DNA from: a virus
Reading direction: 5' to 3' (one strand)
Virus record (IMG/VR): IMGVR_UViG_3300010885_002037
Location: 1-33,894 of that record
Length of the DNA stretch: 33,894 nucleotides
Positions 14,290 through 15,546 of this stretch are shown piece after piece. The stretch's first letter is position 1, and each line of letters begins with the position of its first letter. The notes below the pieces were generated by a model. It did no database searches. It was not told the origin of the DNA and was given only the letters and a program-made list of their open reading frames with translations. The position numbers and the translations under genes were made by a program.

Positions 14290-14507
14290 TTTTCACCTCT
14301 AATTGTTGGGAAAGATGCCAAAGCATCACCAAAGCCATTAACTACATCACGCAATAATGGATTTACTTGGCTGTTACGGGGAAGGCCACAAGCGTACCGT
14401 AAATCATTTATTTCGGCTTGGGTTATAAAAGTACCATCTTCGAGGTCTTTAAAGATGCGTTCCAAATGTTGCTGGAAGCTTTGAAAGTCTTGATCTTGCT
14501 CACTCAT
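14286..14507 (-). CDS. First gene of the leftward early operon, small acidic protein
   Basis: I choose the ATG at 14507 because AGGAGA lies 6 bases upstream. A start at 14543 would sit at the promoter start point. The 73-aa protein (MSEQDQDFQSFQQHLERIFKDL...) is mostly helical and acidic at the start, with a short motif RYACGLPRNSQVNPLLRD in the middle. No domain is recognised. Being first behind the divergent control region, it should be among the earliest products made. Its stop overlaps the start of the ssDNA-binding gene. Confidence 0.65.
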   Translation of the reverse strand: MSEQDQDFQSFQQHLERIFKDLEDGTFITQAEINDLRYACGLPRNSQVNPLLRDVVNGFGDALASFPTIRGEK

Positions 14508-14545
14508 AAGAGTTCTCCTGTTATCACGGCATATACCGTACACCC

Positions 14546-14574
14546 ATATTAACTTAACTTAACACCATTAGCAA
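14546..14574 (-). promoter_or_regulatory. Leftward early promoter with TTAAG half-site repeats
   Basis: On the minus strand, TTGCTA (14574-14569) and TAATAT (14551-14546) are spaced by 17 bases. The spacer and its edge contain tandem TTAAG half-sites: the plus strand reads TTAACTTAACTTAAC at 14549-14563. The half-site matches the dyad found in two other promoters of this genome, so it is probably an operator. Predicted transcription starts near 14539, about 30 bases before the start codon at 14507. This would be the main leftward early promoter. Confidence 0.45.
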
Positions 14575-14596
14575 GAAATATGTTAAGATTACTTAT
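14559..14596 (+). promoter_or_regulatory. Repressor-gene promoter and operator
   Basis: TTAACA (14559-14564) and TAAGAT (14584-14589) are a possible -35/-10 pair with a long 19-base spacer. The dyad TTAAG-ATTA-CTTAT (14583-14596) covers the -10 and start point. A start near 14596-14598 would make the repressor mRNA leaderless, which fits the absence of any Shine-Dalgarno sequence before the ATG at 14598. The dyad placement implies self-repression. The promoter itself is weakly supported; the dyad is clearer. Confidence 0.4.
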
Positions 14597-14597
14597 C

Positions 14598-14825
14598 ATG
14601 AATACAACAGCCATCATTAAATTATTGGGCGGATGCACTAAAGTTGCCAATTTGGTGGGTGTAAGCGTTCCTGCGGTATCTATGTGGCAAAACGGGGACA
14701 TTCCCCAAGACAAGCTGATCATCTTGGCGGCAACCCTTGAAAAAGAAAGCCACGGTTTAATTACCCGTAAGTCGCTTTTACCCAACACTTATCATTTAAT
14801 TTGGCCTGAGTTGCAAGACGCTTAA
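14598..14825 (+). CDS. YdaS/Cro-like helix-turn-helix repressor
   Basis: The 75-aa protein (from MNTTAIIKLLGGCTKVANLVGVSVPAVSMW) contains a helix-turn-helix at about residues 11-32: TKVANLVGVSVPAVSMWQNG, the layout of YdaS/Cro-type phage regulators. The C-terminal part (LITRKSLLPNTYHLIWPEL) also fits that family, in which 'R..L.P..YP.IW' is common. I prefer the ATG at 14598 to one at 14580 because the upstream one has no ribosome site and adds hydrophobic residues outside the domain. It is transcribed away from the leftward operon and is the obvious candidate to bind the TTAAG dyads. No second, longer CI-type repressor is present in the window. Confidence 0.8.
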   Translation: MNTTAIIKLLGGCTKVANLVGVSVPAVSMWQNGDIPQDKLIILAATLEKESHGLITRKSLLPNTYHLIWPELQDA

Positions 14826-14838
14826 AATTTGATATACT
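14811..14838 (+). promoter_or_regulatory. Promoter for the hairpin RNA
   Basis: TTGCAA (14811-14816), 16 bases, then TATACT (14833-14838): four of six and five of six matches to the sigma70 consensus. The -35 lies inside the 3' end of the repressor gene. Predicted start is near 14845, just upstream of the folded RNA. No TTAAG dyad overlaps this promoter, so it may escape the repressor. Confidence 0.55.
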
Positions 14839-14844
14839 AGCCAT

Positions 14845-14962
14845 ATTGAGGACTGAAACACTCAGATTAGGGTATTAGAGGTGACTTTGTGGGTTTAGGA
14901 AATGAAGTAAAGAGGCATTTCCCAAGCCGTTTCAGCATAAAGCCACCCCTAATACCCTTTTT
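14845..14962 (+). ncRNA. Candidate phage non-coding RNA ending in an intrinsic terminator
   Basis: Downstream of its own promoter, one long imperfect hairpin spans 14870-14957. The paired blocks are GGGTATTAG/CTAATACCC (14870-14878 with 14949-14957), GGTG/CACC (14880-14883 with 14944-14947), CTTTGTG/CATAAAG (14885-14891 with 14936-14942), GGTTT/AAGCC (14892-14896 with 14924-14928) and GGAAATG/CATTTCC (14898-14904 with 14916-14922), with an 11-base loop. TTTTT follows at 14958-14962. The unpaired bulge GTTTCAG (14929-14935) is exactly complementary to CTGAAAC (14853-14859) in the leader, allowing a pseudoknot. No open frame of useful size lies within. It could be a trans-acting small RNA or a regulated terminator/leader for the rightward operon. 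Confidence 0.65.
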
Positions 14963-15214
14963 GTTTGCCTGTCCCCGATGGTTTTGATTGAGCGGGAACC
15001 GACACCAGCGATCAAGATACAAGTGCTACTGGGGGAAAATTGATGCAACAGCACATATATAGGTGGCGAAGTTAGTGCCTATTCAATGAACGACTGACGG
15101 GTTATGCGACTCCGAGAAGGAAGATCATATTAAGGCAAATCTAGGAAAGGGCTAGGTTTGCTCATCCTCAAAGGAAGTGACTAATAGCAACACTAATAAT
15201 TAGTTAATAATTAA
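14963..15214 (+). other. Non-coding leader region with possible pseudoknot and hairpin
   Basis: No credible gene is seen in these 252 bases. CCAG (15005-15008) can pair with CTGG (15029-15032), while GTGCT in its loop (15023-15027) matches AGCAC downstream (15050-15054), the layout of an H-type pseudoknot. GCAAATCTAG (15135-15144) and CTAGGTTTGC (15152-15161) form a 10-bp stem with one G-T pair around a 7-base loop and no T-run. The tiny frame 14978-15043 (21 codons) lacks a ribosome site. The stretch may be a second structured RNA between the terminator and the next promoter. Confidence 0.45.
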
Positions 15215-15215
15215 C

Positions 15216-15245
15216 TTGCATTGTTAAGATTCCTTAAGATATACT
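15216..15245 (+). promoter_or_regulatory. Rightward early promoter with internal operator
   Basis: TTGCAT (15216-15221), an 18-base spacer and TATACT (15240-15245) form a good sigma70 promoter. The spacer contains the perfect dyad TTAAG-ATTC-CTTAA (15224-15237), placed where a bound repressor would exclude polymerase. The block from 15215 to 15237 matches the leftward promoter at 12572-12594 (reverse strand) at 21 of 23 positions. Predicted start is near 15252, leading into the gene at 15286. Confidence 0.6.
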
Positions 15246-15285
15246 GGTTTCACTCAATACCGAGTGATATAGAAAAGGAATAGAC

Positions 15286-15546
15286 ATGACAATCAAAAAA
15301 ACCCCAAAAGCCAAGCCGCTTACAGCTTTGCAACTTGCAGAACGCAAGATCAGCAACCTTGAATATGCAATTTATAGCGCATACAACAATTTTGATGAAC
15401 TCTTTGCTTTGCTACGCATATATCGGGATTTTACGCAATCCGATGAATACAACAAATACACTGCCAAACACGCTTTAAACGGCATTTTTACCAACGCCAT
15501 TAATATTCAGACTAATTTGATGGACGAAGCTGGATTGGAGTACTAA
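15286..15546 (+). CDS. First gene of the rightward operon, unknown function
   Basis: The 86-aa protein has a basic, Pro/Lys-rich start (TIKKTPKAKPLT) and is otherwise helical, with aromatic residues in the middle (NLEYAIYSAYNNFDELFALLRIYRDF). No domain is recognised. AAGGAA lies 7 bases before the ATG. As the first gene after the operator-controlled promoter it is likely an early regulator or host-interaction protein, but that is inferred only from position. The next gene begins two bases after its stop. Confidence 0.65.
   Translation: MTIKKTPKAKPLTALQLAERKISNLEYAIYSAYNNFDELFALLRIYRDFTQSDEYNKYTAKHALNGIFTNAINIQTNLMDEAGLEY

Follow-up and report, generated by a model that had tools for sequence, protein, structure and literature searches.

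A conserved, structured phage noncoding RNA with a loop-bulge helix and a predicted promoter of its own, found upstream of an RF02932 RNA

In this study, a viral DNA of 33,894 nucleotides (IMG/VR record IMGVR_UViG_3300010885_002037, positions 1 to 33,894; the window hereafter) was analysed around the region following a repressor gene. A preliminary description, made from the sequence letters, had proposed at this place a promoter-driven, pseudoknot-capable RNA lying between the repressor and the early operon. The features of the locus are as follows.

14580..14825, + strand: Cro/YdaS-like repressor gene just upstream (P22_Cro, E = 2.8e-8; phrog_35, transcriptional repressor)
14811..14838, + strand: predicted sigma70-type promoter TTGCAA-N16-TATACT, which overlaps the 3′ end of the repressor gene
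14845..14962, + strand: predicted short RNA (RNA1) of ~118 nt, from the promoter and U-tract positions and the conserved structure
14846..14865, + strand: 5′ hairpin with the kissing sequence in its loop (helix paired in 98% of cells, 3 pairs changed on both sides)
14853..14859, + strand: K, the 5′ kissing sequence CTGAAAC, complement of 14929-14935
14869..14958, + strand: long imperfect hairpin, the terminator stem (z = -5.1; 95-96% paired, 15 pairs changed on both sides)
14929..14935, + strand: K′, the 7-nt 3′-side bulge GTTTCAG (mean probability of being unpaired 0.99 in the window-type set)
14958..14962, + strand: TTTTT, U-tract of the intrinsic terminator, from the sequence (a T-run stands in all sequences of alignments A1 and A2)
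14981..15102, + strand: RNA2, Betaproteobacteria-1 RNA (Rfam RF02932; score 97.4 bits, gathering cutoff 49.4, E = 2.6e-17)
15103..15170, + strand: hairpin-bearing 3′ remainder of RNA2, past the end of the Rfam model, between the AAGGAAG copies at 15117-15123 and 15171-15177
15216..15245, + strand: promoter-like TTGCAT-N18-TATACT and a TTAAG/CTTAA palindrome before the early genes (sequence match)

The predicted promoter consists of TTGCAA at 14811-14816, a 16-nt spacer, and TATACT at 14833-14838; these positions and the earlier ones for CTGAAAC, GTTTCAG, and TTTTT were verified in the window sequence. Promoter-like matches in the 1-kb region were no commoner than in shuffled sequences, and the match taken alone is weak. 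The 5′ end of RNA1 was inferred to lie ~7 nt past the -10 box. A small 5′ hairpin is formed by pairing of about 14846-14850 with 14861-14865, and since CTGAAAC sits in its loop, K and K′ would meet as a loop-bulge kiss; this location, like the adjoining RF02932, had been overlooked in the preliminary description. The long hairpin, given there as 14870-14957, is indeed imperfect, with three A/C mismatches and a single 7-nt bulge on the 3′ side, but folds as 14869-14958, one pair longer. The minimum free energy of the RNA1 region was -43.3 kcal/mol, compared with -25.5 ± 3.5 for shuffled sequences (z = -5.1), and none of 200 shuffles equalled it. RNA1 thus ends in a stable hairpin with a U-tract immediately behind it, as intrinsic terminators do, and the U-tract is found in all aligned relatives. 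The terminator was absent from a simple terminator scan, probably because its loop is larger than the 3-8 nt permitted there. For the window alone, a chance match of 7 complementary nt within the ~25 nt at the 5′ end was estimated to have a probability of roughly 0.1%.

Relatives were gathered by sequence patterns, and conservation within the patterns is therefore by construction. The kissing letters lie outside all patterns with one exception: GTT, the first three letters of the bulge, is specified in the second class-A pattern, and the invariance of this end is therefore partly by construction as well. Locus totals count related phages more than once, and pair counts use distinct rows. By pattern searches of viral contigs for the conserved parts, 34 window-type copies, 32 of them distinct, were collected as class A. 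The kissing helix of 7 bp was 100% paired in the 32 distinct sequences, with 3 of the 7 pairs changed on both sides and the most variable pair occurring as GC, AU, UA, and CG; across the whole structure, 96.6% of cells were paired, compared with 34-52% when it was slid. All 34 window-type relatives preserve the long-range helix of the preliminary description, with compensatory changes. Where loss of the complementarity in related phages would have told against that description, the relatives retain it, and the compensating changes it called for were found both in the stem and in the K/K′ pair. One relative was found among cultured phages, MW202753, which carries the same RNA with CTGATAAC opposite GTTATCAG, a compensated change. 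An annotated hypothetical protein of this phage (UOF81610.1; locus L002, 1953-2384) spans RNA1 and the leader and is probably a spurious gene.

A sequence pattern for a second class, B, matched at least 120 viral contigs, and 98 loci of the same architecture and different sequence were present among the matches listed. In 98 of the 102 matches listed, the hairpin interior contained an exact complement, nearly always of 7-9 nt, to part of the 60 nt upstream, whereas interiors compared with the upstream segments of other loci gave mostly 5 nt or fewer; the remaining 4 matches were judged not to be copies of RNA1. RNAalifold analysis of 61 class-B copies gave 26 nested pairs, 15 with double changes. 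A class-B covariance model built without the kissing helix recovered 14 of 14 held-out viral loci and further loci, and a complement of 6-11 nt was kept in 15 of 17 further model matches. The model did not find the window copy; any kinship of classes A and B is therefore judged by their common architecture and not by sequence. This architecture also recurs at about 15 further divergent loci, and loci with the RF02932-like pattern showed upstream promoters and kissing terminators of quite different sequence. A third arrangement, read from the sequence at L183, L186, L196, and others, has the 5′ segment pairing with the apical loop, e.g., GGCGAACACC/GGTGTTCGCC and GGCGCAAACC/GGTTTGCGCC. A different RNA precedes RF02932 at L183, L185, L186, L187, L189, L195, L196, and L198, where a variable 5′ 7-10-mer matches the apical loop.

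No cultured phage was matched by blastn with a class-B sequence, no match was obtained in a plasmid search, and GC skew gave no clear origin signal at the element. The class-B model also gave no match in 401 genomes of the family of L137, which under the strict filters used is weak evidence. Since over a hundred other viral contigs keep the pairing while the letters change, RNA1 represents a real, undescribed RNA family. These results show that positions 14845-14962 hold a conserved, structured phage noncoding RNA, with a predicted promoter of its own, a loop-bulge helix, and a terminator hairpin with a U-tract. The proposal of a promoter-driven phage RNA with a pseudoknot-capable helix is thus backed by comparative evidence; the observation was right, and stronger than could have been known from the window, and the interpretation attached to it is partly supported.

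The spacing of the elements was compared among the copies. From the end of the -10 box to K, 14-15 nt were counted in most of the 34 class-A copies and 12-13 nt in most of the 98 class-B copies among the matches listed. This fixed spacing supports the predicted promoter and would place the start of RNA1 near the base of the 5′ hairpin. From the end of the bulge to the U-tract, the distance in every class was ~20-22 nt for nearly all copies (mean of class B, 19.8), and the span from loop to bulge varied from 37 to 82 nt. One outlying bulge-to-U-tract value of 11 (L192) came from an internal T-run. RNA polymerase covers ~14 nt of RNA, so the bulge would emerge just as the U-tract is reached. In the nested ensemble, the probabilities of being unpaired were 0.94 for K and 0.99 for K′ in class A, and 0.73 and 0.86 in class B. 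A 5′ segment competing with the terminator stem, as had been suggested, is not consistent with a bulge that is unpaired in the terminator fold; with both partners free, the long-range helix is predicted to form beside the stem without replacing it.

RF02932 begins 18 nt past the U-tract of RNA1 and is the only Rfam RNA in the window. At least 40 of 86 RF02932-type loci had an RNA1 with at least 7 kissing pairs just upstream, compared with 80 of 4000 (2%) random windows. RF02932 also occurs alone, as at L170 and L175, the RF02932 starts of which are near-identical while one has RNA1 and the other lacks it, and RNA1 is therefore a separable module. RF02932 without a detected RNA1 was seen at L039 and L059 as well, viral contigs with IMG numbers resembling those of isolate genomes. 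A direct repeat similar to that of the window, with one copy following GGCTCC and the other the final CACCA, is found in variable form in most RF02932 relatives; one example is TCGAGCAG, which occurs twice in L064, and the control also gives some matches. No cis complement of this repeat was found beyond the control. A Type II hammerhead ribozyme (38.1 bits) was detected at L083 4325-4382, on the same phage contig as an RNA1 and an RF02932. The name "Betaproteobacteria-1 RNA" was not found in the literature searched.

Placement at a repressor/early-operon junction, as described earlier, is true of the window, but the RNA1 family was also found outside such junctions. RNA1 often lies tight behind the stop codon of the upstream gene, commonly a repressor gene in class A, and a terminase, scaffold, methylase, or nuclease gene in class B. 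At L244 and L355 the upstream protein resembles a T7-type capsid assembly (scaffold) protein, and the next gene at L355 is probably a capsid gene. In the window, half-sites similar to TTAAG/CTTAA also stand before the repressor gene, and the repressor may therefore act at both sites. Downstream of RNA1 is a noncoding stretch of some 200-500 nt, which contains RF02932 in the window and other sequence types elsewhere. Loci of the latter kind (L002, L126, L244, L245, L251, L257, L286, L300, L305, L315, L327, and L355) have other long noncoding types, e.g., CCGTACTCC..GCGCGGAAGGAAAC, CCGTCAGGGCGCGTTAGC..., and CATGCGGTACGTCGGTGGTG..., which appear structured and in part alike; none exceeded the Rfam threshold in the loci scanned. 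No common gene downstream of RNA1 was found among the sampled neighbours. HNH endonuclease genes followed closely upon RNA1 and the leader at L244, L247, L255, L256, L258, L269, L285, L293, L313, L318, and L336; they accounted for 10 of 48 sampled downstream proteins and, by motif, for 11 of 132 loci, many of them from related phages, and their enrichment is unproven.

Scanning of 14500-15300 with cmscan up to E = 5 gave RF02932 and two chance microRNA matches; no family for RNA1, including the Rfam C4 antisense RNA and isrK models, was matched. In 13 related loci, nothing exceeded the Rfam threshold except RF02932, a tRNA, and a hammerhead. RNA1 does not belong to RF02932, the match to which begins at 14981, past the U-tract; RF02932 is its neighbour, beside about half of the related loci, and RNA1 lies outside its model. 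Among known phage RNAs, the put RNA of HK022 is a leader that alters terminator behaviour. It has no U-tract of its own and is located before terminators, whereas RNA1 has a U-tract, and by analogy RNA2 would be a better candidate than RNA1 for a put-like role; besides RF02932 and the chance microRNA matches, that scan offered no Rfam family for this comparison either. The packaging RNA of phi29 is about 120 nt long, and its loop pairs covary between phages; it kisses between molecules and serves packaging, whereas RNA1 has no packaging link. P4 CI RNA and P1/P7 C4 antisense RNA resemble RNA1 in being phage RNAs with complementary sequences on one transcript, a property found in K and K′ within one short RNA. 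CI RNA is made by processing, whereas RNA1 has its own U-tract end and holds both partners.

In a published account (PMC4825925), the complementary sequences of P4 act by premature termination and CI RNA pairs with seqA/seqC. The same account describes IsrK of the Salmonella prophage Gifsy-1, which like RNA1 is a prophage RNA transcribed from a promoter of its own, with a terminator close behind that promoter; its terminated and readthrough forms share the 5′ sequence, and the terminated RNA acts in trans on the readthrough form (PMC4825925). The predicted arrangement of RNA1 would allow both forms. The readthrough form of IsrK is, as described there, an mRNA switched on for AntQ/AnrP production, whereas that of RNA1 would be a noncoding leader, and the conserved loop-bulge helix of RNA1 does not appear in the IsrK description consulted (PMC4825925).

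The preliminary description had left two possibilities, a small RNA or a two-state leader. The canonical U-tract terminator and fixed promoter favour a discrete short RNA, and the long noncoding leader downstream, which with 18 nt to RF02932 has no room for a promoter of its own, favours regulated readthrough. Judged from the sequence comparisons, our preferred reading, held tentatively and with less than even confidence, is that RNA1 is a conditional terminator (attenuator) heading a long noncoding leader. The 5′ loop would meet the bulge as the latter leaves RNA polymerase, ~20-22 nt before the U-tract, and the resulting helix would set the efficiency of the terminator. By default the short RNA would be produced, and bypass of the terminator would let transcription proceed into the downstream leader (RF02932 in the window) and perhaps the genes beyond. 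Conditional termination is suggested by the fixed bulge-to-U-tract distance and the lack of room for another promoter, and the compensated helix, the single-stranded loop and bulge, the fixed promoter, and the association of RNA1 with RF02932 also count for it. Counted against it are that stem and kissing helix are not mutually exclusive, which leaves the effect of the helix on termination unexplained, that a switch acting purely in cis gives no reason for faster evolution of K, and that RF02932 occurs also without RNA1 and no common downstream gene was found.

The chief rival, which is possible though rather unlikely, is recognition of self in trans: terminated RNA1 would accumulate, and its loop or bulge would pair with the complementary stretch of this RNA when an incoming phage or a further copy of the genome produces it, and so determine immunity, incompatibility, or timing. 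As sequence and complement are both present in every RNA, RNA1 would recognise only its own type. This reading best explains why the kissing letters change faster. Among class-A sequences, 14 independent close pairs were compared: 17 of 196 positions differed in kissing columns and 63 of 1452 in the rest (odds ratio 2.1, p = 0.0125). Between certain near-identical RNAs, most differences fall jointly in K and K′ (L202 and L218 differ in 4 of 14 kissing letters and in 2 of 102 others), and the same K recurs on different backgrounds. IsrK and P4 CI RNA provide precedents (PMC4825925). The rate excess is only twofold, however, and the other stem pairs of class B are as variable as the kissing pairs, so that the kissing letters are accelerated in class A and not generally hypervariable. 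Moreover, a partner in the same molecule should beat one in trans unless folding is slow, and no additional trans target was identified among the loci analysed. Conditional termination and trans recognition could both operate, with the short form gating readthrough of other copies. That the family, with its variable "key" loop and matching "lock" bulge, is a widespread RNA-only system of self/non-self discrimination (immunity or incompatibility), gating transcription into leaders of the RF02932 kind, is an unlikely extension of these ideas.

RNA1 might instead be a stand-alone small RNA, its kissing helix being part of the fold, which acts on a protein or on other RNAs through, e.g., the apical loop. 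The discrete promoter and U-tract agree with this, as do the most conserved apical part of class A (GGGTTTAGGNAATGA..AGAGGCATT..AAGCC) and the invariant internal-loop arms of class B (ACTCATGC/GCAGCAGT), the conservation of both being partly due to the search patterns. The apical loops nevertheless differ in sequence and size between the classes, and this role would leave unexplained why the bulge keeps its distance from the U-tract and why RNA1 is tied to RF02932-like leaders, so we regard it as quite unlikely. A structural RNA forming dimers or rings by intermolecular loop-bulge kissing is very improbable: covarying loop pairs also mark the phi29 packaging RNA, and RF02932 gave at most one match per record in those searched in full, but a link to packaging genes is absent, the neighbours are varied, and intramolecular kissing seems geometrically possible. 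Scarcely any weight is given to a DNA-level feature, in which K and K′ would be inverted half-sites for the neighbouring repressor. The element does adjoin a Cro-like repressor gene in the window, but of 20 repressor pairs with an identity of 88% or more, 16 have unlike K sequences, and one and the same K can stand beside repressors that share only 49% identity; K does not follow the adjacent repressor, and paired DNA operators were rejected. In addition, the gene immediately upstream is not a repressor gene in most class-B copies, and K and K′ fall exactly in the loop and the bulge. An ordinary intrinsic terminator of the repressor gene, with the hairpin and U-tract of that form and a 7-nt complement by chance, can practically be dismissed, since well over a hundred loci preserve the complement through compensatory changes, and the end of the upstream gene contains a promoter at a constant spacing.

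RNA1 adds a contact between a loop and a terminator bulge to the known designs of intrinsic terminators. It has no Rfam family, although the pattern of one class matches at least 120 viral contigs, and through it the orphan Rfam family RF02932 gains a recurrent partner. If the kissing letters set specificity, an RNA-only recognition between phages would be directly testable by a seven-base swap on each side.
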